From Opitutaceae bacterium (GTDB lineage Bacteria > Verrucomicrobiota > Verrucomicrobiia > Opitutales > Opitutaceae), in NCBI GenBank assembly GCA_014879845.1, contig JACSRI010000157.1, positions 1 through 34,437 on the forward strand: 34,437 nucleotides of DNA, read 5' to 3'. The position numbers were made by a program, and so were the translations under genes. Below, piece by piece: positions 14,564 to 30,616 of this stretch (position 1 is its first letter; every line of letters starts with the position of its first letter). The notes beneath the pieces are model-generated. The model searched no databases. It saw nothing but the letters and a program-made list of their open reading frames with translations, and was not told where the DNA came from.

Positions 14564-14601
14564 TTGACACAGTCGTGACCGCCGCGGCACGCGCTTGTCA
14601 C
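14564..14601 (+). promoter_or_regulatory. Possible promoter and Pho-box-like half sites upstream of receptor 2
   Basis: A perfect -35 hexamer TTGACA at 14564-14569 contains the first of two TGAC boxes (14565-14568 and 14576-14579). The boxes are spaced exactly 11 bp, one helical turn. On the minus strand they read GTCA-N7-GTCA, the half-site spacing of PhoB boxes. A third GTCAC lies at 14597-14601. No matching -10 is seen at 17 bp. The downstream phosphatase and phytase make phosphate control plausible, but the match is short and may be chance. Confidence 0.3.
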
Positions 14602-14627
14602 ATCCTGGGGCCAGACTGGGGGGAGTC

Positions 14628-17531: not shown

Positions 17532-17552
17532 GCCACGTCCACCCTGGCATCC

Positions 17553-17580
17553 GCGGCGTGCGCCCTTCGGTGCGCGCCGC
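17553..17580 (+). other. Strong stem-loop between receptor 2 and the phosphatase
   Basis: An 11-bp stem (17553-17563 with 17570-17580, two G-U pairs) is closed by a CCTTCG loop that can be read as a C(UUCG)G tetraloop. It is not followed by a T tract. It could partly terminate, or protect the upstream receptor mRNA 3' end, so that receptor and enzymes are made in different amounts. This is a prediction from pairing only. Confidence 0.55.
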
Positions 17581-17627
17581 ATGTTGCGTGTAGGTATTTC
17601 CCAGTTCTCTTTTCGGACCTCCTTTCC

Positions 17628-19262
17628 ATGCGTCACTCGCTCTTTCTGGCTTCGCTGATCGGGCTGCCGATCGCGCTGATCGCCCATGATGACCACGACC
17701 ACGCGTCGTGGCAGCCCGAGCGCTATCCCGATGCGGCCGCGCACGCGCCGCGGCCGCTGCCCGACCGCGTCGTGCTCACCTGGGATGGCGATCCCGCCAC
17801 CTCGCAGGCCGTAACCTGGCGCACCGACCCGTCGATCGAGCGCGCCGTCGCCGAGCTCGCGCTGGCCAACGACCTCGGGCGCGCACTCGTGCCCACGCGT
17901 TTCGATGCGACCACCGTCGAATTCACCAGCGACCTCAGCACCGCCCACTACCACAGCGTGAGCTTTCGCGATCTCGCGCCCGACACGCTCTACACCTACC
18001 GCGTCGGCGACGGGGTGAACTGGTCGGAGTGGTTTCACTTCCGCACGGCGGCGCGCGAGGCGCGGCGGTTTTCCTTCATCTACTTCGGCGACGCGCAGAA
18101 CGACATCCGCACGCACTGGTCGCGCGTGTTTCGCGAGGCCTTCCGCGAGGCTCCGCGCGCCGCGTTCACGCTGCACGCCGGCGACCTGATCAACGAGGAC
18201 GCGAGCGACGCGGAGTGGGGCGAGTGGCACGGGGCGCCCGCCTGGGTCAACGGTACGATCCCGGTCGTCGCCACGCCGGGAAACCACGAGTACTACCGCG
18301 CCAACGCCGGGCCCGAGCACGAGCGGTTCTGGCGCACGAAGGACGGGAAGGACATCGCGGTCGACCTCGAGACGACCAAGATCTGGGATGACGCAGGCAA
18401 GGTCGTCGCGGTGCGCGTGGTCGCCCGCACCGCCGAAGGAAGATCAGGTGAACTCACGCACGACACCAAGCGCATCACCGCGGTCGACGCCGGCATCACG
18501 GCGCTGACCGGGTTCGCTGCGGCGGACCTCGTGGGCACGGAGCCGTCGAAGCATCCGCTGCGCGACCGGCCGCGAGATCCCGGCGTGCCGGCGGTCAGCC
18601 AGCACTGGCGCCCACAGTTCGCATTTCCAGTGCAGGACATCCCGGCCGGCCTGGAGGAGACCTGCTACTCCATCGACTACCAGGGCGCGCGTATCATCGC
18701 GCTCGATTCGAACCAACAGCAGGAGGCGCAGGTCGCCTGGCTGCGCCGCGTCCTCGCGGAGAATCGCCAGCGGTGGACGATTCTCACTTTTCACCATCCC
18801 ATCTTCTCGCCGGCCAAGGATCGCGACAACGCGTCGCTGCGTGCGGTCTGGAAACCCGTGTTCGACGAGTTCCGGGTCGACCTCGTGCTCACCGGCCACG
18901 ACCACACCTACGCGCGCACCGGACGCGTCGATGGCCGTGTGCGCGTGGGCGATACGAACGTGAGCAAGGGCTACACCCAGGCCTATGATCCCGAGATCGG
19001 CACGGTGTATGTCGTGTCGGTAAGCGGCCCGAAGATGTATGACATCACCGACGATTCGTGGGCCGTGCGCATGGCCGAGGACACGCAGCTCTTCCAGGTG
19101 ATCACGGTCGACGGCGACACGCTCCACTTCGAGGCGCGGACCGCGACCAATCGGCTCTACGATGCCTTCACCCTGCGCAAGCGCGCCGGCCAGCCGAACG
19201 AACTGGTCGAGGTGTTCCCTCCCGAAAACCGCCGGCCGCGCGCGGCCACACCCGCGAACTGA
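17628..19262 (+). CDS. Purple-acid-phosphatase-like metallophosphoesterase, secreted
   Basis: 544 aa. After a signal peptide (1-19) the mature protein begins HDDHDHASW. A fibronectin-like PAP N-domain (about 45-140, RVVLTWDGDPATSQAVTW) precedes the metallophosphatase core. Metal-ligand motifs are D155 (YFGDAQND), D186 (HAGDLIN), N219-H220 (GNHEYY), H389/H390 (FHHPIF) and H424/H426 (GHDHTYAR). The Tyr of the GDxxY motif that gives purple enzymes their colour is absent (GDLIN), so the metal pair may differ from Fe-Zn. About 90 residues (235-325) are inserted after the GNHE motif. It likely releases phosphate from an organic ester in the periplasm or at the cell surface, upstream of the phytase. 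Confidence 0.88.
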   Translation: MRHSLFLASLIGLPIALIAHDDHDHASWQPERYPDAAAHAPRPLPDRVVLTWDGDPATSQAVTWRTDPSIERAVAELALANDLGRALVPTRFDATTVEFTSDLSTAHYHSVSFRDLAPDTLYTYRVGDGVNWSEWFHFRTAAREARRFSFIYFGDAQNDIRTHWSRVFREAFREAPRAAFTLHAGDLINEDASDAEWGEWHGAPAWVNGTIPVVATPGNHEYYRANAGPEHERFWRTKDGKDIAVDLETTKIWDDAGKVVAVRVVARTAEGRSGELTHDTKRITAVDAGITALTGFAAADLVGTEPSKHPLRDRPRDPGVPAVSQHWRPQFAFPVQDIPAGLEETCYSIDYQGARIIALDSNQQQEAQVAWLRRVLAENRQRWTILTFHHPIFSPAKDRDNASLRAVWKPVFDEFRVDLVLTGHDHTYARTGRVDGRVRVGDTNVSKGYTQAYDPEIGTVYVVSVSGPKMYDITDDSWAVRMAEDTQLFQVITVDGDTLHFEARTATNRLYDAFTLRKRAGQPNELVEVFPPENRRPRAATPAN

Positions 19263-19275
19263 TCGCTCATTTCAG

Positions 19276-20373
19276 ATGACTTCTCGTATCCATCTTGTGT
19301 TGTCGCTCAGCCTTGCCGCTTTCACCCTCGCGCCGCTGCACGCGAAGGATCCACTCCCGGATCCCGGCGTGCTCCATGCCGGCGCGGTCGCGCCACGCGT
19401 CGTGACCGAGCCGACGCGGCACGACACCGATGACCCGGCCATCTGGATCAACCGGGCCGATCCGTCGCAGAGCCTCATCCTCGGCACCGACAAGGACGTC
19501 GACGGCGCGCTCTATGTCTACGGCCTCGATGGAAAGATCCACCACGACAGGGTCGTGCGCGGCCTCGTGCGCCCGAACAACGTCGACATTGCCTACGGCC
19601 TGCCGGTCGGTGGCGCGGTCGTCGACGTGGCCGTCACGACCGAGCGTTATGCCCATCGCCTGCGCGTCTACCGCCTGCCCGACATGGCGCCGCTCGATGG
19701 TGGCGGCATTCCGGTCTTCGAGGGGGAACGCGCGCGCGACTGCATGGGTGTGTCGCTCTACACGCGCCCATCCGACGGCGCGCTTTTTGCCATCGTCAGC
19801 CGCTCCGACTTCGGGGCGCCGGCGCGCGGTTACCTGCATCAGTATCGGCTCGTCGACGACGGCGCCGGCACCGTGCGGGGCATTTTCGTGCGCGCGTTCG
19901 GCGAATGGAGCGGAACGAAGGAGGTCGAGGCCATCGCGGTGGATGACGCGGCCGGTTTTGTCTACTACAGCGACGAGGGATTCGGCGTGCGCAAGTACCT
20001 CGCCGATCCGCTGGCCGACGACGCCGAGGATGAACTGACGCAGCTCGGCACGGCGGGTTTTGCCGAGGACCACGAGGGGATCTCGATCTACGAGTTCGAC
20101 GCGGCGAGCGGCTACATCCTCGTCTCCAACCAGCAGGCCGACACCTTCCGCATCTTTGCGCGCGAGGGCGGCCCGGGCGGTCCGCACGACCACGGCTTCC
20201 TCGGCAGTGTGCGCCTGAGCACACGCGCAAGCGACGGCAGCGACGTGACCTTTCGCACACTCTCGCCGCAATTTCCCGGTGGCCTGTTCGTCGCGATGTC
20301 GACTGACCGGACCTTCCACCTCTACGCCTGGGAGGACATCGCGAAGGCGGCGGGGCTGAAGGTGCGACGGTAG
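19276..20373 (+). CDS. Beta-propeller (alkaline) phytase
   Basis: 365 aa with signal peptide MTSRIHLVLSLSLAAFTLAPLHA. It aligns along its length with Bacillus-type 3-phytases, six-bladed propellers that hydrolyse Ca-phytate. Matching blocks are DDPAIW (52-57), LILGTDK, RPNNVDIAYGLPVGG, KEVEAIAVDDAAGFVYYSDE, DHEGISIYEF, YILVSNQQADTFRIF and, at the end, FPGGLFVAMSTDRTFHLYAW. The acidic residues of these blocks are the Ca and phosphate ligands in the family. The start is 13 bp after the phosphatase stop, with no clear SD, so coupling by termination-reinitiation is likely. Frames reaching upstream to 19162 overlap the phosphatase and lack a signal peptide. Confidence 0.92.
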   Translation: MTSRIHLVLSLSLAAFTLAPLHAKDPLPDPGVLHAGAVAPRVVTEPTRHDTDDPAIWINRADPSQSLILGTDKDVDGALYVYGLDGKIHHDRVVRGLVRPNNVDIAYGLPVGGAVVDVAVTTERYAHRLRVYRLPDMAPLDGGGIPVFEGERARDCMGVSLYTRPSDGALFAIVSRSDFGAPARGYLHQYRLVDDGAGTVRGIFVRAFGEWSGTKEVEAIAVDDAAGFVYYSDEGFGVRKYLADPLADDAEDELTQLGTAGFAEDHEGISIYEFDAASGYILVSNQQADTFRIFAREGGPGGPHDHGFLGSVRLSTRASDGSDVTFRTLSPQFPGGLFVAMSTDRTFHLYAWEDIAKAAGLKVRR

Positions 20374-20404: not shown

Positions 20405-20485
20405 GAGGTAGGGCGAGGCCTCCGGCCGAGCCGCGTCAGCGAGGTGCGTGCGAGCGCGGCTCGGCCGGAGGCCTCGCCCTACCTC
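20405..20485. repeat. REPIN-like perfect inverted repeat, copy 2
   Basis: Arms of 31 bp (20405-20435 and 20455-20485) are perfect inverted copies around a 19-nt loop. Each arm is itself an imperfect hairpin, GGCGAGGCC-TCC-GGCCGAGCC. It lies between the convergent phytase and sensor-kinase genes. The kinase stop codon (TAG, complement of 20479-20481) is formed by the first bases of the repeat. It may act as a two-way transcription stop, although no T tract follows on either side. Confidence 0.9.
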
Positions 20486-21843
20486 GGAGTGTGCGGCAGG
20501 CGGATCGTCACGCGCAGGCCGCCGCCGTCGCGGTTGACTGCGGTGATTGTCCCGCCGTGGGCTTCGACGATGCTGCGTGCGATGGCGAGGCCGAGGCCGC
20601 TGCCGCCGGGTGCGTGCTCGTCGGCGCCCGGGCCGCGCACGAAGCGGCCGAAAATCTGCTCGAGCTGCTCGGGCGGCACGCCGGGACCTTGGTCGTCGAT
20701 AGTGATCGTCCACGCGTCGGTGGCGCAGCCTGACCCGAGTGTGATGCTGCGACCCTTGGGTGTGTGGCGGATGGCGTTGGAGAGGACGTTGAGCAGGACC
20801 TGGCGGACGAGCACGGCGTCGAACTCGGCCGTGCCGGAGTCGTGGCGCGTGACGTGGAAGGTCAGACCGCGGTCCTCGCACAGCGCGGCGGCGTCTTCGT
20901 CGATCTCGGCGACGAAGCGCTGCAGGTCATGGCGGCGCCGGTCGAGCGGGAGACTGCCGGCGTCGGCCTTGGCGATGAAGAGCAGGCTCTCGACGAGCTT
21001 GTTCAGCCGCGTGATCTCCTCGAGCTGACTCTCGACCTGGGCGAGGTCGGCCGGCGTGAGCGCGCTCGAGTGCTGCAGGCGTTCGGCGTGCAGCCGGATG
21101 AGCGAGAGCGGGGTCTTGAGTTCGTGCGAGGCGTCGGCGGTGAAGCGTTTCACCTGCTCGAAGGCGGCCTCGAGGCGCGCGAAGAGGTCGTTGAGGAGGC
21201 GGGCGAGGGCGGCGATCTCGTCCTTGCCGGCGGGCACGGGCAGGCGTTCGGAAAGGTTGCTCGCGCTGATATGCTGGGCCGAGCGCTGCATCGCACGCAC
21301 GGGTTTGAGCGCGATCTCGCTGAGCAGCAGGCCGACGACGATCGAGCAGAGGAAAAGCAGGGGCAGCCCGACGAGGAGCAGCCGCTGGTATTGGTCGATG
21401 AGCTGCTCGACCTGCTCGAGGTTGGTCGCGATCTGCACGTGGTAGGTCTGGTAGTACTGCTCGCGCACGCGGATCGGTTCATCGCGCAGGGTGACCGTGC
21501 GCACGGCCGTCACGCGATCGCCGAGATCGGGCAGGACAAGATCGCCGAGATTGCGCGACCGGAAGATCACGCCCTCGCCGTCGCGGTGGATCTGAAAGTA
21601 GTAGATGGGCGCGTCGATCTCCGTGTGGCCGCGGAGGGCGGAGATGAGCTCGTCGTGCGGGAGCCGCTCGGGATGCGGCCCCATGCGGTGCAGGATTTCC
21701 TCCGTCTCGGCTGCGAGGAGGAAGTCGATGCCGTCGTGCATCTGCTTGCGGACGACGAAATACCCGATCGCCGCAGCCGAGCCGGCGGTGAGCGTCACCG
21801 CGAGGCTGAACCAGAGTGTGAGCCGAAAACGCAACGACCTCAT
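20479..21843 (-). CDS. Sensor histidine kinase, CusS-like
   Basis: 454 aa. TM1 (about 9-31), a periplasmic sensor region (32-154), TM2 (about 155-177), HAMP (178-230), an H-box with H240 (TADASHELKTPLSLIR), an N-box NVLSNAIRHTP, and G-boxes DDQGPGVP and GGSGLGLAIA. Length and layout resemble the CusS/heavy-metal sensor group, but the ligand is not evident. Its start overlaps the response-regulator stop by ATGA. It is the last gene of the ten-gene unit, which suggests it controls that unit. The C-terminus ends PHTPR and the stop codon comes from the adjoining repeat, so the original protein may have been longer. Confidence 0.93.
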   Translation of the reverse strand: MRSLRFRLTLWFSLAVTLTAGSAAAIGYFVVRKQMHDGIDFLLAAETEEILHRMGPHPERLPHDELISALRGHTEIDAPIYYFQIHRDGEGVIFRSRNLGDLVLPDLGDRVTAVRTVTLRDEPIRVREQYYQTYHVQIATNLEQVEQLIDQYQRLLLVGLPLLFLCSIVVGLLLSEIALKPVRAMQRSAQHISASNLSERLPVPAGKDEIAALARLLNDLFARLEAAFEQVKRFTADASHELKTPLSLIRLHAERLQHSSALTPADLAQVESQLEEITRLNKLVESLLFIAKADAGSLPLDRRRHDLQRFVAEIDEDAAALCEDRGLTFHVTRHDSGTAEFDAVLVRQVLLNVLSNAIRHTPKGRSITLGSGCATDAWTITIDDQGPGVPPEQLEQIFGRFVRGPGADEHAPGGSGLGLAIARSIVEAHGGTITAVNRDGGGLRVTIRLPHTPR

Positions 21844-22508
21844 GGCAGCACGTAGCCTGTGCCGCGCACGGTGCGGATGAGTGGCGTGCCATCCGTGCCG
21901 TTCGGCAGTTTCGTGCGCAGCTTCTTCACGTAGACGTCGATGAGGTTGGTTTCCGAGTCGAAGGAGGTTTCCCAGATGCGCTCGGCGATCTGCGTGCGCG
22001 TGAGCACGCGGCCGGGGTTGGCGAGAAACAGCTCGAGCAGCGCGAACTCGCGTCCGGTCAGGTCGACGGGCTGGCCGGCGGCCGTGACCTTGCGGCTGAG
22101 CAGGTCCATGCCGATGCCGGCGTGCTCGTAGCGCGTGCGCTTCTGTTTGGACTCGCGGCGCAGCAGGCTGCGCAGCCGCGCGAGTAGTTCGTCGAAGCTG
22201 AAGGGTTTGGGCAGGTAGTCGTCGGCGCCGAGGTTGAGCCCGGTGATGCGGTCGTCGACCTGGCCGCGCGCGGAGAGGATCACGACCGGCTCGGAAAATC
22301 CCGACTGTCTCCAGCGTCTGAGGACATCGAGGCCGGAGCCGTCGGGCAGGCCGATGTCGAGAACGATGGCGTCGTAGTGCGACTCGGCCAGCGCGTCCTC
22401 CGCCGCGGCGCACGTCCCGACGAGTGTCGCCGTGTAAGCGGCCTCCTGCAGGCCCTTCTGGATGAATTGGCCGAGCTTGCGCTCGTCTTCGACGACCAGG
22501 ATTTTCAT
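21840..22508 (-). CDS. OmpR-family response regulator, CusR-like
   Basis: 222 aa. The receiver domain has the acidic pair E7/D8, phospho-acceptor D51 in AIVLDIGLPDGSG and the conserved Lys in LPKPFSFDEL. The C-terminal winged helix carries LTGREFALLELFLANPGRV and the LIDVYVKKLR...IRTVRGTGYVL recognition region. It is transcribed with the kinase at 20479 (ATGA overlap) and the cytochrome upstream (ATGA overlap). The wording VDLTGREFALLELF is common in copper/heavy-metal regulators of the CusR/CopR group. That makes a metal or redox signal plausible, not proven. Confidence 0.95.
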   Translation of the reverse strand: MKILVVEDERKLGQFIQKGLQEAAYTATLVGTCAAAEDALAESHYDAIVLDIGLPDGSGLDVLRRWRQSGFSEPVVILSARGQVDDRITGLNLGADDYLPKPFSFDELLARLRSLLRRESKQKRTRYEHAGIGMDLLSRKVTAAGQPVDLTGREFALLELFLANPGRVLTRTQIAERIWETSFDSETNLIDVYVKKLRTKLPNGTDGTPLIRTVRGTGYVLP

Positions 22509-22966
22509 GGGGCTTCCGGAGCGGAAGTCTCGCCCTCGCGGCCGAGCGAGTCGAGGTAATCGAGCAGCGCCTCGCCGCGCCGATCGCCCTCGGCGAACAG
22601 GTGGGCGTAGGACGGCATGCGCGAGTGCGGCGAGACGAGGCGCGGCGTCGTGAGGTGCAGGCGTTGCCAGTCGCGGATGCGCCGTTGACCGACGTTCATG
22701 AGGTCGGGTCCCTGGCGGCGGTTGCCGATCAACGCAGGCGCCTGCTGGCGGGAGAACTCCGGGTCGCGCGCCGCGCCCCAGAGTTCCTCATCGCGCGTGC
22801 CCGGACGGATGAACTGCGAGTGGCAGTGCATGCAGCCCTCACTGATGTAGACCTGACGGCCGAGCGCGGCGCCGGTCAGCGCCGGTTCGGGGCGCAGCGC
22901 CGTGGCGATGAGCGTCGCTGCCGGGACGGCGAGGAAGACGAGGAGCGGAAGCCAGCGGGTGGTCAT
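22505..22966 (-). CDS. CcoO-like membrane-anchored mono-haem cytochrome c
   Basis: 153 aa with an N-terminal anchor (about 5-22) and a periplasmic domain. The haem site is C45-M-H-C48-H49 in YISEGCMHCHSQFIRP. A likely axial Met is M117 in SRMPSYAHLF. The strings SQFIRP, GPDLMNVGQRR and HLTTPRLVSPHSRMPSY closely follow CcoO, the mono-haem subunit of cbb3 oxidase, but the protein is shorter than classical CcoO (about 200 aa). It probably passes electrons to the CcoN-like protein at 24508. No CcoP or CcoQ is present. It overlaps both neighbours by ATGA. Confidence 0.92.
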   Translation of the reverse strand: MTTRWLPLLVFLAVPAATLIATALRPEPALTGAALGRQVYISEGCMHCHSQFIRPGTRDEELWGAARDPEFSRQQAPALIGNRRQGPDLMNVGQRRIRDWQRLHLTTPRLVSPHSRMPSYAHLFAEGDRRGEALLDYLDSLGREGETSAPEAP

Positions 22967-24108
22967 GGCGACGAGCGGAGTTGAAGCAACGATGCCGCGA
23001 GCACCACGGCCGCCGCCGGCGCGGCCCACAGCGGCACGCGGCCGAACTGCTCGGCCAGGCCCACGCCCGCGCCCGAGCCGACCCAGCCGGCGAGCGCATA
23101 GACCCACGTGGCGCGCCACGCGGGCCGCAGGCCGGCGTCGCCGGGGCCGAGCGCGGCAAACGCGGCGAGGGCGGTGGAATAGAGCGAAACACCCGCGGCA
23201 TACGCCGGTCCGGCCCAGAGCGCGGCACCGCTGCTGCCGAATCCGAAGTGCCCGGCCGCGAGCAGCGCGAACGCCGCGGCAAGCACCACGCGAAACGCGC
23301 CGCGATCGATGAGCAGGCCGGCGCCGAGCGCGGCCAGCGCGTGGGTCGCGCCGATGAGCCGCAGCGTGCGAGGCCCGCCCCAGAAGAGGTCGCGCAGGTC
23401 GGCCGAGTTTTGCACGGCCGTGAACGCCGCGGAGTCGAACCAGACGAGCGCGAGGAAACCGAGCGTCGCCATGGCCACGATGCGTCGCGAGACCAGCCCC
23501 GTGTAGGGGCCATCTGACGACACGGGAGCGGCCGTGCGTCCGGCGAGCGCGAAGCCGAGCCCGGCGAGCGCGGCTGCCGCGCTGATCCAGCCCTTGTCGG
23601 ACGGCGAGGCGGTGAAGAAGGCGGGAAAGTTGCAGACGAGGTAGGCGAGACCGGTGCCCGCTCCGACGTGCACGCCGAGCGCATGGCCGCCGGTGAAGCG
23701 TCGCAGCAGGATCGCGGCCGCGACCGTGGAGGCGCCGAGGCCGGCGCCGGTGAGCAGGGCGATGGCGGCGAGCATGCCCATGCCCGCTGCGGGTTGCGCA
23801 AACGCGAATGCCGCGAGACCGCCCGCCGCCGCGGCGAGGGCGAAGCCGATCGCGCCGGCGAATCGTGCCTCGCGCCGCTGCAGCGCCATCGCCGTGGCGA
23901 TGCTTGCGGCGATGCCGGCCAGCGCCATCGCGCCGAGCACACGATGGATCGCCTCGACCGGGTGGCCGGCTGCGCGGATGCCCTGCAGGAACCCGAACTG
24001 CGCGAAAATCAGGAAGTGGACATAGATGGCCGCGACGAGGCCGACGGCGGCTGGCGAAATGCGCGATCCGCCCGAGGCGGAACCAGCCGTGGACGCGGGC
24101 AAGCTCAT
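22963..24108 (-). CDS. Major-facilitator-like membrane transporter
   Basis: 381 aa, mostly hydrophobic, with about 11-12 predicted membrane segments from residue 20 onward. It has a central break around 210-225 (SSDGPYTGLVSRR) that separates two halves, as in MFS proteins. His and Met residues in membrane regions (PAAGMGM, GGHALGVHVGAG, YVHFLIF) recall, but do not prove, a metal transporter. CcoA, the copper importer needed for cbb3 oxidase assembly, is also an MFS protein, so a copper-supply role is a reasonable guess from context. Start and stop overlap its neighbours by ATGA on both sides. Confidence 0.75.
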   Translation of the reverse strand: MSLPASTAGSASGGSRISPAAVGLVAAIYVHFLIFAQFGFLQGIRAAGHPVEAIHRVLGAMALAGIAASIATAMALQRREARFAGAIGFALAAAAGGLAAFAFAQPAAGMGMLAAIALLTGAGLGASTVAAAILLRRFTGGHALGVHVGAGTGLAYLVCNFPAFFTASPSDKGWISAAAALAGLGFALAGRTAAPVSSDGPYTGLVSRRIVAMATLGFLALVWFDSAAFTAVQNSADLRDLFWGGPRTLRLIGATHALAALGAGLLIDRGAFRVVLAAAFALLAAGHFGFGSSGAALWAGPAYAAGVSLYSTALAAFAALGPGDAGLRPAWRATWVYALAGWVGSGAGVGLAEQFGRVPLWAAPAAAVVLAASLLQLRSSP

Positions 24109-24518
24109 GCCTCGAACCAACGTGCGTTCAATCCCCAGGCCTGGAGGAGGGCGAGCGTGGCATCCGAGAAGCCGACGACGAGCCAGGCGGGTTCGAGGTG
24201 TTTCGTCGCTACTGCGGTCAACGTGAATGCCGCGATGCAGGTGCGGATGGCGGCGGTCGCGCCCCACACGCCGTGGAGTCGTTGCGCCCGTCGGTCAAAC
24301 CGCGAGGTGGCCAGCCCCCAGAGGTAGGAGAGCCCGACACCCATCACGAACGCGCCGACGAATCGCATGAGGATGTCGCCGCCACCTCCGGGCATGGTCG
24401 CGCCGAAGAGATGGAGCGTCGTCTCGGGCAAGGTCACGAGGAGGGCGCCGGTCGTGGTGTCGAGCAGGCCGGCCCCGAGCGAGAGGAGGATGACGAAAGT
24501 CGTACGGTCAGAGCGCAT
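24105..24518 (-). CDS. Small four-helix membrane protein, unknown
   Basis: 137 aa with four hydrophobic segments (about 8-30, 47-68, 84-102 and 108-126). A Gly-rich loop (MPGGGGD) follows the first. No cysteine or histidine pattern suggesting a cofactor is seen. I recognise no family. Its start lies 11 bp inside the end of the CcoN-like gene and its stop overlaps the next start by ATGA, so it is clearly part of the unit. A small accessory subunit of the oxidase or the transporter is possible. Confidence 0.8.
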   Translation of the reverse strand: MRSDRTTFVILLSLGAGLLDTTTGALLVTLPETTLHLFGATMPGGGGDILMRFVGAFVMGVGLSYLWGLATSRFDRRAQRLHGVWGATAAIRTCIAAFTLTAVATKHLEPAWLVVGFSDATLALLQAWGLNARWFEA

Positions 24519-25854
24519 GGGCGGATCCGGGTTTGGAGGCTGTTGTCTCGATCGCGGAGTCAGGCCCGCGCCGCGCCGCAGCCCGCAGCCACAGAACGGC
24601 GGCGCCGAGCATCATGACGCCGGTAAGGAGACGGAGGGCGTAGCCGACGCTGACGGCGTTGGCGCCGTTGTAGGCGGCGAGCGGTTCGGCCGCCTCGTGG
24701 AATCCGACCCACGTGAGCACGCCGATCATCGCACCGCTGCCGGCGTTCCACAGCAACCACGGCAGGCGCGCGTCGAGCGCGCGGGCGAGCGCACTCGCGG
24801 GAGCGAGCGAGACGAGCACCAGCATGTTCAGCGCGGTGAGCAGCCCGGCCATGGCGAGGTGCGAGTGGGCGACGAACGCGTTGGTGAACTTCAGGCGGTC
24901 GAGGACGCCGGGCAGGAAGAGCACCCAACCGTCGACCACGAGGAGCGCGCACCACACCGCCGTCGTGATGAGCCAGCGGCGCTGCGACCGCTCCCACACG
25001 AAGAGGCGGAACCACCACACCAGCAGCGGCGGCCAGACCAGCAGGGTGCCGAGGCCGGCGATCTGCTCGGCGTCGTGGTTGGTGGCGTTGCCGTGCCCGA
25101 TGTATAGATACACCACCCAGTTGGCCGCGAAGATGAGGCCGGCGGTGATCGACTCCTGCACGATGCGGCGCCGGGCCGGGCGACCGAGCAGGGTGGGCAA
25201 CACCAGCGCGATGCCGACTACGCCGAGGCTCGAGGCAAGCAGGCTGTGGCCGGTGGCGCCGCCGCTGTCGGGATTGACCGGCGGGTAGACGGAGGGCTGG
25301 GCCGAGAAGTGCAGGGCGAGCGGCACGGCGGCGAGGACGAGGAGCATCGCGGCGTCGGCTATGCGGTGGGCCGTGCGCCCGCGATCGAGACGGCGGCGCG
25401 CCCACCAGCCGGCGGTGAGCACGGCCCAGAGGAGCAGCTGTGCGCCGGCGAAGGCGAGATCGTCGGCGCCGCTCCAGTCGAGGAAGAGCTTGCCGCTGGT
25501 ATGCCCGCCGAGCCAGTCGAGCGAGCCGGCGAGGAGCGCGCTGAGCCACGCGGCCAGCGCCACGCGCCCGGCCGTGTGCCAGGCGTCGGCCGGCGGGAGC
25601 ATCCGCAGCATCAATACGCCGACGACCGGCAGGCTGCACCAGCCAAAGAGCTGCACGTCGAGGTGCACGGGCATCCAGCGCCCGTAGGTGAGCGGACCCA
25701 TGAGCCGCCCGGCCTCGGGCCAGAGCAGGACGAACGCGAGCCAGAGCCCGACCGCGCTCGCCGCGATCAGGCAGGCGAGCGAGGCGAGGGCGACCGAGCG
25801 CTGCAGCGCGGCGCGGAAGGCGGCGTCGCCGGGCGACTGTGCCTCAGTCATCAT
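24508..25854 (-). CDS. Divergent haem-copper oxidase subunit I (CcoN-like)
   Basis: 448 aa with about 11-12 membrane helices. Low-spin haem ligands appear as H64 (MPVHLDVQLFGW) and H332, and the high-spin haem ligand as H330, in FVAHSHLAMAG. This matches CcoN H60, H347 and H345. For CuB, H203 (ATGHSLLASS) and H254 (YIGHGNATNH) fit two ligands by spacing. The canonical adjacent His-His (CcoN H257-H258) reads H254-G255, and the WAGP bases before it are deleted. Y249 or Y251 could stand for the cross-linked Tyr, at altered spacing. There is no Glu where NorB needs it. It may be a true but unusual oxidase, or a quinol/cytochrome haem-b protein without O2 chemistry. It pairs with the CcoO-like gene. 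It starts MM at 25854, inside the ATPase end. Confidence 0.8.
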   Translation of the reverse strand: MMTEAQSPGDAAFRAALQRSVALASLACLIAASAVGLWLAFVLLWPEAGRLMGPLTYGRWMPVHLDVQLFGWCSLPVVGVLMLRMLPPADAWHTAGRVALAAWLSALLAGSLDWLGGHTSGKLFLDWSGADDLAFAGAQLLLWAVLTAGWWARRRLDRGRTAHRIADAAMLLVLAAVPLALHFSAQPSVYPPVNPDSGGATGHSLLASSLGVVGIALVLPTLLGRPARRRIVQESITAGLIFAANWVVYLYIGHGNATNHDAEQIAGLGTLLVWPPLLVWWFRLFVWERSQRRWLITTAVWCALLVVDGWVLFLPGVLDRLKFTNAFVAHSHLAMAGLLTALNMLVLVSLAPASALARALDARLPWLLWNAGSGAMIGVLTWVGFHEAAEPLAAYNGANAVSVGYALRLLTGVMMLGAAVLWLRAAARRGPDSAIETTASKPGSAHAL

Positions 25855-26542
25855 GCACGATGCGTCCGTCGCGCACGAGCACGAGGCGGCCGCAGGCCTC
25901 GGCGAGGCTGCGGTCGTGCGTGGCGAGGATGAGGGTCGCGCTCTCGCGCGCCACGAGGTCGATCAACATCTTGAATACGCGCGAGCCGTTCTCCTCGTCG
26001 AGCGAGCCGGTGGGCTCGTCGGCGAGCACGAGGCGCGGGCGGTTGACGAGGGCCCGGCAGAGCGCGGCGCGCTGGCGCTCGCCGCCGGAGAGTTCCTGCA
26101 CGGGCCGGTCGATGCGGTGGGCGATGCCGGTGGCCTCGAGCAATTCCTCGACGCGCGTCTTCACCTCGCGGGGATGGCGGCCGGCGGCCAGCGCGGGCAC
26201 GAGGCAGTTCTCACGCAGCGTGAGATCGGGGATGAGATTGTGGAGCTGGAAGACGAATCCGACCGTGTCGCGCAGCAGCGCGGTGCGCTGCTCGGGCGTG
26301 CGGATGGGATGGCCGTCGAGGTGCACGTCGCCTTCGTCGGGCGAGTCGAGTCCGCCGAGGATGTTGAGCAACGTGCTCTTGCCCGAGCCGGATGCGCCGC
26401 ACAGCGCGACCGTTTCGCCGGCGTGCACGTGCAGGTCGACGCCCTGGAGCACGCGGATGCGGCCGGAGTCGTAGGATTTCCAGAGGCCGCGCACGCTCAC
26501 GATCGGCGGGGACGCGTGGTTGTTGGGCGGAGGCGTGATCAT
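25844..26542 (-). CDS. ABC transporter ATPase, MacB/LolD type
   Basis: 232 aa. Walker A GASGSGKST at 49-57, Q-loop VFQLHNLIP, signature LSGGERQR at 151-158, Walker B LVLADEP at 171-177 with catalytic E176, and switch H209 (LATHD). These are the hallmarks of the LolD/MacB/FtsE clade, which works with FtsX-type permeases on substrates extracted from the membrane or periplasm. Its partner is the permease at 26655, 112 bp upstream. The gap is filled by a REPIN-like repeat. The end overlaps the CcoN-like start by 11 bp. Confidence 0.95.
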   Translation of the reverse strand: MITPPPNNHASPPIVSVRGLWKSYDSGRIRVLQGVDLHVHAGETVALCGASGSGKSTLLNILGGLDSPDEGDVHLDGHPIRTPEQRTALLRDTVGFVFQLHNLIPDLTLRENCLVPALAAGRHPREVKTRVEELLEATGIAHRIDRPVQELSGGERQRAALCRALVNRPRLVLADEPTGSLDEENGSRVFKMLIDLVARESATLILATHDRSLAEACGRLVLVRDGRIVHDD

Positions 26543-26562
26543 GCGTGAGCGCAGCTTGCGGG

Positions 26563-26635
26563 TAGGGCGAGGCCTCCGGCCGAGCCGCGAGTGCGGGTCC
26601 GCGTGGGTTGCGGCTCGGCCGGAGGCCTCGCCCTA
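26563..26635. repeat. REPIN-like inverted repeat, copy 3, inside the operon
   Basis: Two perfect inverted 26-bp cores (26563-26588 and 26610-26635) enclose a 21-nt loop. Both match the copy at 20405. It lies between the permease stop (26655) and the ATPase start (26542). It is the only sizeable gap in an otherwise overlapping series. A 26-bp stem in the mRNA would be very stable and may set the ratio of the two halves of the transcript. Confidence 0.9.
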
Positions 26636-26654
26636 TCAGGTTCACGAGTCCGGT

Positions 26655-27767
26655 TCATTCGTAGCGCAGCGCTCGCGCCGTCTCGATGCGCATGGCAAAA
26701 CGCGCGGGCCAGGCGGCGCCGGCGGCGCCGGTCAGGCCGGCGACCAGCACCGCGGCCGCGGCCACGGTCCACTCGAGCTGCGGCATCACGTAGCCCTGGA
26801 GAAACGGCAGGTGTTTCATGATCACCACCGCGGCGTAGCCGAGCCCGAGCCCGAGCACGGCTCCGGCGAGCGAGACGACGAGCGACTCGCCCAGGATGAG
26901 CGAGGCGACCTGGCGCGGGGAGAATCCGCAGGACTTGAGGATCGCCAGTTCGCGGATACGCACGAAGACCGAGAGCACCATCGTGTTGGCCACGCCGAGT
27001 CCGCCGAGCAGGAAGGCCGCGAGCCCGACCGCCCAGCTCGTGGCGCGCAGGATCTTGAACTGCGAGTAGCCGCGGTTGAACTCGGCGTTTTCCAGCGCGA
27101 TGAGGTAGGGGATCTCGGCGGCCACGCGCTCGCGGAAGGCCGCGGCCTGGGCGGAATCGCGCAGCTTGATCGTGATGATCGAGGACACGCCCTCGCGTCG
27201 GAAGTACTCGCGCGCGGTCGCGAGCGGGAGGAACACGCCGCCGTCCTCGAAGCCGTTGCGCGTCTGCACCACGCCGCCGACGATGTAGTCGCGCGCGCCG
27301 ATCGTGACCTTCTCGCCGAGCCCGGCCTCGAGAAACTCCGAGGCGCGCGCACCCAGTACGATCTCGCCTTCGCGGCGGCCGAATGCGGCGCGGTCGCCCG
27401 CGAGCCAGGTGGCGGTGTCGAGGCGCGGGTCCTCGGGGCTGACGCCGAAACAGGTCACCACTGGGTGTCCCTGCGTGGAGACGAGCCCGAAGAGCAGCGG
27501 CAGCGCCGAGTCGACTTCCGGCATGGCGCGGAGTTTTTCGAGGTCCTCGTCGTCGACGGCGGAGAAGAAGAGGTCGGAGACATTGCGCTCGAAGACGAGC
27601 ATCTCGGTGTCGTGCGCGAGGATGCCCTGGAACATGCCGATCGCACCCCGCACCACGGCGATGACGGAAAACATCGCCGCCACGCCGAGCGCGATGCCGG
27701 CGACGCCGATGGCCGTGCGCACGCGGTGACGGCGCAGGTTGATGACGACGAGGCGGAGGTGATTCAT
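26655..27767 (-). CDS. FtsX/MacB-type ABC permease
   Basis: 370 aa. TM1 (about 17-42) is followed by a large periplasmic MacB-like domain (about 45-235). Three C-terminal helices follow (about 245-270, 292-320 and 335-358). Typical family wording is seen: RTAIGVAGIALGVAAMFSV, NTMVLSVFVRIRELAILKS and the coupling-helix region GFSPRQVASLILGE. MacB-type permeases act as mechanotransmitters rather than channels. No HlyD-like fusion protein or TolC is adjacent, so a LolCDE-like or lipid-handling role is as likely as efflux. Its start overlaps the prenyl synthase stop by ATGA. Confidence 0.92.
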   Translation of the reverse strand: MNHLRLVVINLRRHRVRTAIGVAGIALGVAAMFSVIAVVRGAIGMFQGILAHDTEMLVFERNVSDLFFSAVDDEDLEKLRAMPEVDSALPLLFGLVSTQGHPVVTCFGVSPEDPRLDTATWLAGDRAAFGRREGEIVLGARASEFLEAGLGEKVTIGARDYIVGGVVQTRNGFEDGGVFLPLATAREYFRREGVSSIITIKLRDSAQAAAFRERVAAEIPYLIALENAEFNRGYSQFKILRATSWAVGLAAFLLGGLGVANTMVLSVFVRIRELAILKSCGFSPRQVASLILGESLVVSLAGAVLGLGLGYAAVVIMKHLPFLQGYVMPQLEWTVAAAAVLVAGLTGAAGAAWPARFAMRIETARALRYE

Positions 27768-28708
27768 GCGCAGCGCGAGGCCGGGAGAGGATCGTGCAGG
27801 TGGGCGGAGGCCGCCACGCCAAAACGATCGATCAGCGGGCCGAGCGTGCGCCAGCCCGGCCGGAGTTCGACCAGGCTGCGGAACGAGGAATCGAGCAGAC
27901 CGAGCAGGCGCCGCAGGCGGGCCGAGGCGGCGTCGCGCCCCGCGGCGATGACGAAGTTGGGCCGGCCGCGGCCGGCGTCGCGGCCCGCGGTCTTGCCCGT
28001 GACGGCGCCGGAACCGAGGTCGCCGAAGTCGTCGGCGATCTGATACGCGAGACCCCAGGCCACGCTCACGCGGTCGATGAGGAGCCGCTCGCGCGCGCCG
28101 GCGCCGGCCAGCAGCGCGGGGGTGACCAGGCTCAGGCGCAGGAGCGAGACTGTCTTGCCCAAGGCGATACGTGCGACCGTGCGCGGCGTGCGGTCCGTCG
28201 CGGTGAAGTGGAGGTCGAGGCTCTGGCCGTCGAGCACCCCAGCGGTGCCGAGGCAGCGCTCGACGTGTGCGGCCGTGGCGGCGCGGTGCGCCTCCGGCAC
28301 GGCGGCGAGCGCGTCCCAGACGAGCCGGTAGCCGCGGTTGATGAAGCCGAGGGCGCCGAGGATCGTCGCCCCTTCGCCGTGCACGACGTGCGGACAGGGC
28401 CGGCCGCGGCGCAGGTGCGCGTCGTCCATGCAGGGCAAGTCGTCGAGCAGCAGCGAGGCGGTGTGGAAATACTCGAGCGCGCTCGCGAGCGGACGCGTCG
28501 CCGCGGCGGGCAAGTCGAGCGCGGCGCCGGCGATCAGTCCGAGCTGCAGGCGCGTGAGATTGCCCGGCGTGGCGAGCGTGTCGCGCAGCACCCCGGCGAG
28601 GTGCGGCTCGCGGGCGTTGACTGCGATGCCCGTGACGTAGGCTTGGTGCGCGCGGGCGAGGAGCTGGGCGCGCGGCGAGTCTCCGCCCGATGTGCTGGCG
28701 GGGATCAT
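27764..28708 (-). CDS. Polyprenyl (GGPP-type) synthase-like protein
   Basis: 314 aa trans-prenyltransferase. The first aspartate-rich motif is DDLPCMDD (89-96), followed by AHLRRGRP. The second is DDFGD (226-230) in AYQIADDFGDLGS. GQSLDL (161-166) and KTVSLL (185-190) are also present. The residue five before the first motif is Ala (FHTASLLLDD), as in CrtE geranylgeranyl diphosphate synthases, and unlike the Tyr of E. coli IspA. The N-terminal GKRxRP motif that binds IPP reads GNLTRL (49-54), losing the Lys. The enzyme may therefore be altered or accept a different substrate. It overlaps both neighbours by ATGA. Confidence 0.88.
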   Translation of the reverse strand: MIPASTSGGDSPRAQLLARAHQAYVTGIAVNAREPHLAGVLRDTLATPGNLTRLQLGLIAGAALDLPAAATRPLASALEYFHTASLLLDDLPCMDDAHLRRGRPCPHVVHGEGATILGALGFINRGYRLVWDALAAVPEAHRAATAAHVERCLGTAGVLDGQSLDLHFTATDRTPRTVARIALGKTVSLLRLSLVTPALLAGAGARERLLIDRVSVAWGLAYQIADDFGDLGSGAVTGKTAGRDAGRGRPNFVIAAGRDAASARLRRLLGLLDSSFRSLVELRPGWRTLGPLIDRFGVAASAHLHDPLPASRCA

Positions 28709-29262
28709 TCCAGGGTCCCGGTGACGGAGAAGCTGACCTTCACCTCGGTGTCGACCGTGAGCAGGCCAAACTTGCGAAACTGGGAGAGCCCGAACTTCGT
28801 CACGTCGACCACGGCGTCGCCGGTCACGGTGAGTTTCGCGCCCTCGCGCCGGAGGGTGACGGGAAACGAGACCGGCACGGTCACGCCGTGCAGCACGAGG
28901 TCGCCCTCGGCGACGCGGGCGGCTGGCGTGCCGGAGAATTTTGTGAGCCGAAACTCCACGGCCGGCTTCGACTCGTGCTCCATCCAATGGTGCATCTCGG
29001 CGTCGCGCTTCTCGTGGTCGGTCGTCATCGTCGCGCCGTCCCCCTTGAAGACCACGACGTCGGGCAGCTCGGCGCCCTCGGGCAGGCTCAGCTCGAGGTC
29101 CCAGGTGGCGATCCACCCCTCGAACGAGTGCATCGTCGCCTTGGCCACGAAGCCGACCTTCGAGGCGGTGTGGTCGACCTTGAGTTTTTGGGCGGCGGCG
29201 GAAAGTGGAGCGGTGGCGACGGTGGCCGCGACGAGCAGTAGGGTGAGCAAACGCGATTTCAT
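28705..29262 (-). CDS. YceI family isoprenoid-binding-type periplasmic protein
   Basis: 185 aa with signal peptide MKSRLLTLLLVAATVATAPLSAAA. The mature part follows the YceI lipocalin-like fold: KVDHTASKVGFVAKATMHSF, then RDAEMHHWMEHESKPAVEFRL, GDLVLHGVTVPVSFPV and DVTKFGLSQF. YceI relatives bind polyprenyl compounds such as ubiquinone-type chains in a hydrophobic barrel. The start at 29262 is preferred for the signal peptide, with AGGA just upstream. The frame is open further to 29310 without support. It is the first gene of the ten-gene unit and is followed directly (ATGA) by a prenyl synthase. Confidence 0.9.
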   Translation of the reverse strand: MKSRLLTLLLVAATVATAPLSAAAQKLKVDHTASKVGFVAKATMHSFEGWIATWDLELSLPEGAELPDVVVFKGDGATMTTDHEKRDAEMHHWMEHESKPAVEFRLTKFSGTPAARVAEGDLVLHGVTVPVSFPVTLRREGAKLTVTGDAVVDVTKFGLSQFRKFGLLTVDTEVKVSFSVTGTLE

Positions 29263-29398
29263 GGTCCTGAAAGGTAACAGCCCGGCATGAACACACCGTG
29301 AATGGCGCATGAATGATTGTTCATCTGGCGGCGGGGCGGCTTCTCGGATGGGAGGGGCGCGGGCGCCCGGTATTCCTCGCGGGCGCGTGCATGGGCTG

Positions 29399-29472
29399 CC
29401 GTGGTAGCGCAGGCTTCCAGCCTGCCGGTCGACGGCGGCTCAGTAAGCGCAGGCTGGAAGCCTGCGCCACGG
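29399..29472. repeat. REPIN-like inverted repeat, second family
   Basis: The arms (29399-29425 and 29449-29472) are inverted copies of CCGTGGCGCAGGCTTCCAGC..., identical except for an extra TAG in the left arm. Each arm core, GCAGGCT-TCC-AGCCTGC, is a perfect 7-bp hairpin with a TCC loop. It lies in the 259-bp divergent region between the YceI gene and aroB. That region must hold both promoters. I see no reliable -35/-10 pair for either direction in 29263-29398. Confidence 0.88.
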
Positions 29473-29521: not shown

Positions 29522-30616
29522 GTGTCCGCTGTCGAAACCCTTCAGGTACAATTGGCCGAGCGCAGTTACCCGATCACCTTCGGTTCCGGTCTCGGGACGC
29601 AGGTCGCCGAGGCGGTGTCCGCCGCGCGGAGCCAGGGGCGCCGACTGGTCGTCGTGACCGACGATAATGTGCGTGCGGCCGCGGGCGCGCTTTTCGCCGG
29701 ACCGCTCGCCGGTCTCCCGACCTACACGGTGCCGGCGGGCGAGGGTTCGAAGACCCTGGGCGTCTTCGCGGGCGCCTGCGAATTCCTGGCGCGCGAGCGT
29801 ATCGACCGCGGTGGCGTGCTCGTCGCCGTGGGGGGCGGGGTGGTGGGCGACCTCGGCGGATTCCTCGCCGCCGCCTACCTGCGCGGCATCGATTTCTGGC
29901 AGATCCCCACCACGCTGCTCGCCATGGTCGACAGCGCCGTGGGCGGCAAGACTGGGGTCAACCTCGAGGCCGGGAAAAACCTCGTCGGCGCGTTCCACCA
30001 GCCGCGTTCGGTCACCTGCGACATGGCGCTGCTGCGCACGCTGCCGGCGCGCGAGTTCGCCGCCGGCATGGCCGAGGTGATCAAATACGGCCTGCTCGCC
30101 GACGCCGCGCTCTTCACCGACCTCGAGCGCGCTCCGATGACCTCGCCCGACGACCCGCGCCTCGCCGGCATCGTGCGGCGCTGTTGTGCGATCAAGGCCA
30201 CGGTCGTGCAGGCCGACGAACGCGAAACCGCGTCGAGCGGCGGGCGCGCCCTGCTCAACCTCGGGCACACCTTCGCCCACGCCATCGAGGCCGTCGCGGG
30301 CTACGGTCAGTACCTGCACGGCGAGGCCGTGGGCGTGGGCCTCGTCGCGGCGGCGCGCCTCTCGGAATTGCTCGGGCTCGTCCCGGCGGCCGACGTCGCC
30401 CGCGTGCGCCGCGTGGTCGAGGCACACACACTGCCCGTGCGCCTGCGCGCACCGCTCGCGACCGACGCGCTGGTCGAGGCGATGAAACGCGACAAGAAGG
30501 TGAAGCACGGTCGCCTGCGCTTCGTCGTGCTGGAGCGCCTCGGCACCGCGGTCACGCGCGACGAGGTCGACCCGGCGTTGGCCGTGCAGATCTGGAAGGA
30601 GATGGGCGCCTCGTGA
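29522..30616 (+). CDS. aroB: 3-dehydroquinate synthase
   Basis: Second step of the shikimate pathway: cyclises DAHP to 3-dehydroquinate with NAD and a divalent metal. It is 364 aa, full length. The NAD-binding region is VAVGGGVVGDLGGFLAA (101-117). The Zn ligands are E185 (AEVIKYG), H249 (LNLGHTFAHAIE) and H266 (YLHGEAVGVG). The start is GTG at 29522, supported by AGGAG at 29509-29513. It is divergent from the ten-gene unit. Confidence 0.96.
   Translation: MSAVETLQVQLAERSYPITFGSGLGTQVAEAVSAARSQGRRLVVVTDDNVRAAAGALFAGPLAGLPTYTVPAGEGSKTLGVFAGACEFLARERIDRGGVLVAVGGGVVGDLGGFLAAAYLRGIDFWQIPTTLLAMVDSAVGGKTGVNLEAGKNLVGAFHQPRSVTCDMALLRTLPAREFAAGMAEVIKYGLLADAALFTDLERAPMTSPDDPRLAGIVRRCCAIKATVVQADERETASSGGRALLNLGHTFAHAIEAVAGYGQYLHGEAVGVGLVAAARLSELLGLVPAADVARVRRVVEAHTLPVRLRAPLATDALVEAMKRDKKVKHGRLRFVVLERLGTAVTRDEVDPALAVQIWKEMGAS

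Follow-up and report, generated by a model that had tools for sequence, protein, structure and literature searches.

YceI-family proteins have been described elsewhere with bound octaprenyl pyrophosphate, with affinity for menaquinone and with ubiquinone-8 (UQ-8), according to the portion of PMC5350466 drawn on here, and in the BcnA-LcoA system a YceI lipocalin and a cytochrome b561 protect against lipid peroxyl radicals, as set out in part of PMC9113575. Here, we analyzed a ten-gene operon that begins with a YceI gene and lies in a 34,437-nucleotide contig of an Opitutaceae bacterium (JACSRI010000157.1; this whole stretch is termed the window). The operon points to an undescribed cell-envelope redox system rather than to ordinary respiration. 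Tentatively, we read it as a two-component-controlled envelope module for making and carrying an isoprenoid lipid, in all probability a quinone, with which a heme complex would exchange electrons. This proposal builds on features read from the sequences of the window and its relatives: tight packing, gene order, fusion of an MFS-type gene to a CcoO-type gene, a remodelled oxidase fold, a promoter box and, in some members, inclusion or co-regulation of the isopentenyl diphosphate (IPP) isomerase gene idi.

All ten open reading frames lie on the minus strand (window positions 20479-29262), and their coordinates bear out the description given in an earlier sequence-only reading of this DNA, namely a ten-gene overlapping unit in which eight of nine junctions overlap: six junctions are 4-bp ATGA overlaps, two are 11-bp overlaps and one is a 112-bp gap. 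The features, with lengths in amino acids (aa), are as follows.

29288..29313, minus strand: promoter box TTCA-N7-TTCA-N7-TTCA, a triple repeat spaced at 11 bp whose end lies 25 bp upstream of the YceI start codon ATG; proposed regulator site
29262-28705, minus strand: YceI-family periplasmic lipocalin, 185 aa (PF04264)
28708-27764, minus strand: short-chain trans-prenyl diphosphate synthase (PPS), 314 aa (PF00348, 101 bits)
27767-26655, minus strand: FtsX/MacB-type ABC permease, 370 aa (PF12704, MacB_PCD; PF02687, FtsX)
26542-25844, minus strand: LolD/MacB-type ABC ATPase, 232 aa (PF00005, ABC_tran, 131 bits)
25854-24508, minus strand: CcoN-like membrane protein, predicted heme-copper-oxidase subunit I fold (structure model), 448 aa
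24518-24105, minus strand: small membrane protein (sTM), 137 aa, in 84/95 testable loci
24108-22963, minus strand: MFS-fold protein (structure model), 381 aa
22966-22505, minus strand: CcoO/FixO-like c-type cytochrome, 153 aa (PF02433, 94 bits)
22508-21840, minus strand: OmpR-family response regulator, 222 aa (PF00072/PF00486)
21843-20479, minus strand: sensor histidine kinase, 454 aa (HisKA/HATPase_c/HAMP)
26543..26654, no strand: intergenic gap with a REP-like inverted repeat, a dispersed element not counted in the system

Conservation was assessed in 98 distinct loci (L numbers), all retrieved via the CcoN-like protein and cleared of duplicates by a CcoN slice; the presence of the CcoN-like gene (98/98) is therefore by construction, and YceI and the remaining genes were counted on the CcoN strand only. 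Of the 96 loci holding three or more core genes, 93 have them in the core order PPS-FtsX-ABC-CcoN-sTM-MFS-CcoO, the exceptions being L145, L038 and L044, of which the last two stem from the ABC match of another transporter. Where presence was testable, YceI was found in 76/83 loci, PPS in 80/89, FtsX in 84/89, ABC in 88/92 (two of them, L038 and L044, being that other transporter), sTM in 84/95, MFS in 86/90 and CcoO in 87/88; the regulator and kinase were found in 34/77 and 33/77, so that the two-component pair is not universal. Absence of MFS in L038, L042 and L044 means a missing tblastn match only, as CcoO frames of 615-632 aa leave room for it. The FtsX/ABC pair is absent from some lineages; 6/98 loci have an MMPL exporter nearby, in some lineages in place of the ABC pair. 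Conserved order, which the sequence-only reading had put forward as a check on all ten genes, holds for the core but not for the two-component genes, nor for the FtsX/ABC pair in the lineages that lack it.

The module is patchily distributed. The CcoN-like protein occurs in 41/200 genomes of the window's family (39 of these carriers were fetched, leaving out G000, which is the window, and G116, a fragment) and, in a sample of the phylum, in 11/194 genomes, 10 of them in the same family. A scan that detects only proteins matching two peptide patterns found 119 relatives, and the 80 that were kept come from records titled as Verrucomicrobiota, Acidobacteriota (Terriglobus, Edaphobacter, Granulicella, Acidipila, Thermoanaerobaculia), Bdellovibrionales and others. 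One locus titled Rhodanobacteraceae (L134) has a module resembling the Terriglobia version, a possible case of mis-binning. Rows of relatives with stops were excluded. The alignments took in 23/39 relatives (A1, CcoN-like), 43/76 usable relatives (A2, CcoN-like), 34/70 (A3, MFS), 26/70 (A4), 23/61 (A5) and 10 (A6). A literature search for this gene combination, with subscription papers outside its scope, found none described, in line with the earlier statement that no such system was known. The further claim that the products act together gains support from the order kept in two phyla, from gene fusions and from a promoter box that tracks the regulator (below).

Neither the CcoN-like nor the MFS-like protein of the window has a Pfam match of its own; among relatives, COX1 is matched by 10/24 members of alignment A1 and MFS_1 by 15/35 members of A3. 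Structure models confirmed both labels, which had been assigned earlier from the letters alone. The CcoN-like model, built with the relatives' alignment (predicted local distance difference test score (pLDDT) 91.2, predicted template modelling score 0.90), matches NorB (4xyd, Z 28.9), CcoN (9g6b, Z 28.2) and 8smr_E (E 1e-8); as modelled, the protein has the heme-copper-oxidase subunit I fold and is equally near CcoN and NorB. The MFS-like model (pLDDT 90.5) has an MFS fold with Z of about 30.

Within this fold, we take His64 and His332 to be the low-spin heme pair and His330 the high-spin proximal ligand, and we assume that the canonical CuB triad is made of a histidine in transmembrane helix 6 (TM6; WYGHN) and the TM7 His pair. 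The heme-ligand histidines of cbb3 CcoN (His64, His332, His330) are present in the window protein, which also has His203, His254 and His260, with Asn at 259. A census of 95 of the 98 loci (L123, L149 and L069 being too short) found His64 in 95/95, His330 in 94/95 (the remaining one is X), His332 in 83/95, His259 in 88/95, His260 in 65/95 and His254 in 51/95. Histidines in TM6 (model residues 202-222) occur only at 203 (6/95, window included) and 221 (4/95), and Asn259 accompanies His203 in 5/6 sequences vs 2/89 without His203, 87/89 of the latter keeping His259. Local hhalign of the CcoN-like profile against canonical CcoN covered the N-terminal part only, hence a forced global profile alignment was run, usable as a guide only, in which window His203 aligns with the TM6 CuB histidine of CcoN and positions 254/259/260 (H/N/H) fall outside the canonical TM7 HH register. 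By this census, the family as a whole does not share the canonical CuB/FeB triad. Judged from these alignments, the metal site is remodelled across the CcoN-like family, and in the branch of the window the role of a ligand may have passed from position 259 to position 203.

Furthermore, the module co-occurs with conventional oxidases. The window's own genome holds four other heme-copper oxidases above the COX1 cut-off, and canonical CcoN is found in 37/41 carriers vs 107/159 non-carriers (Fisher p 0.003; counted by hand, with genome completeness uncontrolled). Because canonical CcoN co-occurs in 37/41 carriers, the module mostly appears to be an addition to canonical respiration and no substitute for it.

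MFS and CcoO form one frame in 75/82 loci, and two or more CxxCH motifs were found in 80/86 CcoO frames (86 of the 87 CcoO loci were examined). The window and its sister locus L031 have them as separate genes, with one CxxCH in CcoO; since the fused two-heme form is far commoner, this split, one-heme version is probably derived. The window CcoO carries its CxxCH together with an MPxY motif, and the gene that follows it encodes the regulator, so there is no CcoP-type diheme subunit. The cytochrome scores 94 bits against PF02433 (cut-off 29.6) and 95 bits against the equivalog TIGR00781, below its cut-off of 201. The best match of the small membrane protein, DUF4345 (E 0.018), is likewise below cut-off.

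The isoprenoid arm begins with YceI, whose domain scores 72.1 bits against PF04264 (gathering score 23.7) and whose N-terminus resembles a signal peptide by eye. In the PPS, the Asp-rich motif residues D89, D90, D95, D226, D227 and D230 are kept in 24/24 rows, and Ala stands five residues ahead of the first Asp motif. Taking this Ala as a chain-length rule, which is our assumption, the sequence suggests a C15-C20 product, and we infer a C20-type one. The best NCBIfam models of the PPS, farnesyl diphosphate (FPP) synthase (115 bits) and CrtE (105 bits), are both far below cut-off, and its best PDB matches, to geranyl, geranylgeranyl and farnesyl diphosphate synthases, are nearly tied; the genome holds two further prenyl synthases. 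An idi gene lies between YceI and PPS in L032, L033 and L036 (the Idi model is confirmed for L032) and behind a triple (3x) box in the window's own genome, L051 and L069 (L069 by sequence match), the Idi of the own genome scoring 204 bits against NF002995 (cut-off 127). Quinone-type genes adjoin the module in a few loci: isochorismate synthase in L074 and L087 (above cut-off) and as a weak match in L089, a UbiA-type prenyltransferase in L097, L110 and L123, and in L110 also a UbiE-like methyltransferase below its NCBIfam cut-off. A cytochrome b561 gene (PF01292) lies between YceI and PPS in L048, with matches to it in L092, L096 and L099; the window, where YceI and PPS overlap, has no b561 match. 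On the transport side, the ATPase scores 219 bits against the LolD model (cut-off 308) and the LolCE model gives 57 bits (cut-off 362), both below threshold. That a prenylated lipid or quinone may be made and exported, as suggested in the sequence-only reading, is consistent with idi in the operon or behind the same box in some relatives, with the few isochorismate synthase and UbiA neighbors and with published quinone and polyprenyl binding by YceI proteins.

Regulation was approached through the two-component genes and the box. The best NCBIfam model of the regulator is cztR_silR_copR (TIGR01387, 221 bits vs cut-off 279) and that of the kinase cztS_silS_copS (TIGR01386, 251 bits vs cut-off 293); both resemble CopR/CopS-type families but fall below the curated cut-offs, scores that do not establish the copper control suggested earlier. 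Across the 39 family loci, 66 double (2x) and 25 triple boxes were counted, vs means of 5.25 and 0.0 in 20 local shuffles. Loci with an in-operon regulator have a 2x or 3x box ahead of their first gene in 25/29 cases (19 triple), vs 2/41 for loci without it (Fisher p 1e-12, for loci that are not phylogenetically independent and with a box discovered on part of the loci later used for counting). This table omits 16 loci with an untestable regulator, three of them boxed (L073, L088, L102), and loci whose first gene lies <150 bp from the locus start. By these counts the promoter box tracks the in-operon regulator, and we propose the TTCA-N7 box as the putative site of the operon's response regulator. 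In L120, where PPS is the first gene, the box stands before PPS and a double box precedes the distant YceI gene.

Boxes also occur elsewhere. The own genome contains three exact 3x boxes: at the operon, at idi and beyond a PAP2 gene, on its 3′ side. The last lies at L184:4053-8187 (contig C123 of the own genome), which encodes an LTA-synthase-like sulfatase and the PAP2 protein; by eye, a further response regulator diverges from the sulfatase/PAP2 genes and a transposase-like frame stands next to the box. Near the module, an LTA-synthase-like sulfatase was found in 9/98 loci and a PAP2 (lipid-A-phosphatase-like) gene in 10/98; boxes (2x or 3x) stand no more than about 130 bp upstream of 7/9 sulfatases, and in L031 an ArnC-like glycosyltransferase and a LAB_N protein lie behind 3x boxes. 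Because the other boxed genes are sulfatases, an ArnC-like glycosyltransferase and a LAB_N protein, the boxed set suggests an envelope-stress regulon. As an exclusive signature of the module the box was rejected, since 3x boxes occur in 130/200 family genomes, of which 34 are among the 41 carriers and 96 among the 159 non-carriers (split by hand).

Together, these observations are tentatively accommodated as follows. The kinase would sense envelope stress and the regulator would switch the operon on, whereupon Idi and the short-chain PPS would make a prenyl diphosphate, probably C20, to serve as a lipid tail; the lipid in question would most likely be a quinone. Its movement towards the periplasm would fall to the FtsX/LolD-like ABC transporter (or, in some lineages, the MMPL exporter), and its carriage there to the YceI lipocalin. 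The CcoN-like protein with its presumed b-type hemes, the small membrane protein, the MFS protein and CcoO would together make up a redox complex in the membrane, passing electrons between the lipid and c-type cytochromes in one direction or the other. The CcoN-like complex would thereby do for YceI what is proposed of cytochrome b561 (LcoA) for BcnA, keeping a lipocalin-borne quinone redox-active, and the purpose would probably be to counter lipid peroxidation or some comparable stress on the envelope. Of these steps, we infer the lipid's identity, its export, the direction of the electrons and the signal.

Several observations weigh against this scheme, the weakest points being the rarity of quinone genes and the window's own His203. 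Quinone genes stand beside only 6/98 loci, including one weak match, and b561 genes beside only 3/98. A metal site with His203, His254 and His260 may persist in the window protein, and His203 comes with loss of His259 in 5/6 sequences, as if the ligand had moved rather than gone. Heme content may vary, given that the eight Terriglobia-type rows of alignment A2 lack His332 (Leu or Phe instead), and the second cytochrome domain is lost from the window CcoO. In the PPS the GGKR lysine is not kept: the motif reads PGSLxR, with Ser in 20/24 rows and Lys in 1/24, and the second Arg of GGKR(x)R is retained in 24/24; a replaced lysine with kept Asp motifs may mean a changed acceptor substrate of this PPS family. 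Finally, the box does not belong to this regulator alone (at least one 3x box in 96/159 non-carrier genomes, by hand).

Envelope-lipid remodelling without a quinone is rather unlikely in our judgment: here the PPS would supply an isoprenoid lipid without a redox role, which would be sent to the outer membrane alongside changes in lipid A and be oxidised or otherwise modified by the heme complex. The sulfatase and PAP2 neighbors, the boxes before seven of nine sulfatases, the boxed ArnC-like and LAB_N genes of L031 and the PmrA/CopR-like regulator would all suit it, but isochorismate synthase, UbiA and b561 neighbors point to quinones, and no terpene cyclase or other modifying enzyme appeared among the few neighbors scanned with Pfam. 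Alternatively, an isoprenoid/export unit and an electron-transfer unit might share an operon only because the same stress calls for both, with no common substrate. In favor of this, there is no FtsX match in L038 and L044 and no PPS match in L034, L049, L052, L060 and L061; against it, PPS stays adjacent to CcoN where the ABC pair is missing (L074, L077, L078, L087, L095, L110) and the core order is kept in 93/96, which leaves two unrelated functions improbable.

A new type of terminal oxidase or nitric oxide reductase, that is, an alternative respiratory module, would explain the full heme-copper-oxidase fold close to CcoN and NorB, the CcoO-like cytochrome with its CxxCH and, in the window, His64, His330 and His332 along with a His203 that falls on the CuB histidine by forced global alignment. 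The TM6 histidine in only 6/95 sequences, the four own-genome oxidases above the COX1 cut-off and canonical CcoN in 37/41 carriers make this quite unlikely, and the earlier labels "oxidase" and "alternative respiratory module" become doubtful for a family with a remodelled metal site, even though the window is among the six. Copper handling, in which the MFS protein would import copper, CcoA-like, for a cuproenzyme under a CopRS-type system, is very improbable. It draws on the cztR/cztS-type best models of regulator and kinase, on a multicopper-oxidase-like frame (by eye) beside 3 loci and on MxxxM (as MGIGM) in 11/35 MFS rows, but regulator and kinase score below cut-offs. CcoA motifs are given as MxxxM and HxxxM in part of PMC6362234; neither occurs in the window MFS protein and neither is conserved in the 35 rows, and CcoA-like import by this protein was rejected.

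In the 112-bp gap between permease and ATPase lies an inverted repeat with perfect arms of 26 bp (fold z -7.7). Because the window holds further copies, at 20407-20483 (kinase end), 1575-1609 and, in part, 7209-7227, it was set aside and rejected as a part of the system: it is a dispersed REP-like palindrome, one copy of which interrupts the operon. A second palindromic repeat type, with arms like GCAGGCTTCCAGCCTGC (by eye), lies upstream of YceI at about 29400-29470. A sigma-70 scan gave no site and a plasmid comparison no match. On the plus strand, a TonB receptor, a purple acid phosphatase and a phytase stand in a row at 14595-20373, convergent with the operon, and look like a phosphate-scavenging group, and a 3-dehydroquinate synthase gene (29522-30616) diverges from the operon. 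Among relatives, a redoxin-like protein (label by eye) is encoded on the opposite strand in 20/98 loci (L071:5570-6100 and 19 further loci), often directly upstream of YceI; the one member scanned in each gave no Pfam or NCBIfam family, and no PDB relative was found. A metallo-beta-lactamase-fold hydrolase (PF12706, UlaG-like) lies near the module in 30/98 loci (L087:13424-14539 and 29 further loci).

If the envelope redox scheme is true, an oxidase scaffold that once reduced O2 now serves the redox chemistry of an isoprenoid in the periplasm and comes with a lipid supply and a carrier of its own. The scheme would shed light on quinone carriage by YceI lipocalins, extend the heme-copper oxidases by a branch whose metal site is unusual, and provide a testable envelope-stress system whose carriers include the cultured Acidobacteriota Terriglobus roseus, Edaphobacter modestus and Acidipila rosea.

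Among described systems, the module resembles LcoA-BcnA (PMC9113575), in which a YceI lipocalin is likewise encoded with a membrane heme protein; an isoprenoid or quinone ligand is known for relatives of YceI, and a few module relatives also have b561 beside YceI or PPS. Unlike LcoA-BcnA, the window has no b561 between YceI and PPS, its heme protein being a heme-copper-oxidase fold with a CcoO cytochrome, and its module adds a prenyl synthase, an ABC transporter, an MFS protein and a two-component system. With cbb3 oxidase (CcoNOP) it shares the CcoN fold, a CcoO-like monoheme cytochrome and, in relatives, an extra c-type domain, but the CcoN-like protein is only ~15% identical to solved CcoN, a histidine near the TM6 CuB position is found in just 6/95 sequences (the window's among them), CcoO is fused to MFS in relatives, isoprenoid and lipocalin genes are included and canonical cbb3 co-occurs. 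NorB and the nitric oxide reductases have the same fold at an equal Z (28.9, 4xyd), but, by the same histidine census, the metal-site histidines do not appear to be conserved as in NorB, and the partner is CcoO-type, not NorC-type. The FtsX/MacB_PCD permease and LolD-type ATPase recall LolCDE and MacB, although they score below the LolD/LolCE cut-offs and an MMPL exporter lies nearby instead in some lineages. Finally, the OmpR-type regulator, direct repeats at 11-bp spacing and lipid-A-type genes behind similar boxes recall PmrAB and CopRS, from which the module differs in its box of TTCA-N7 repeats and in scores below the curated cut-offs.

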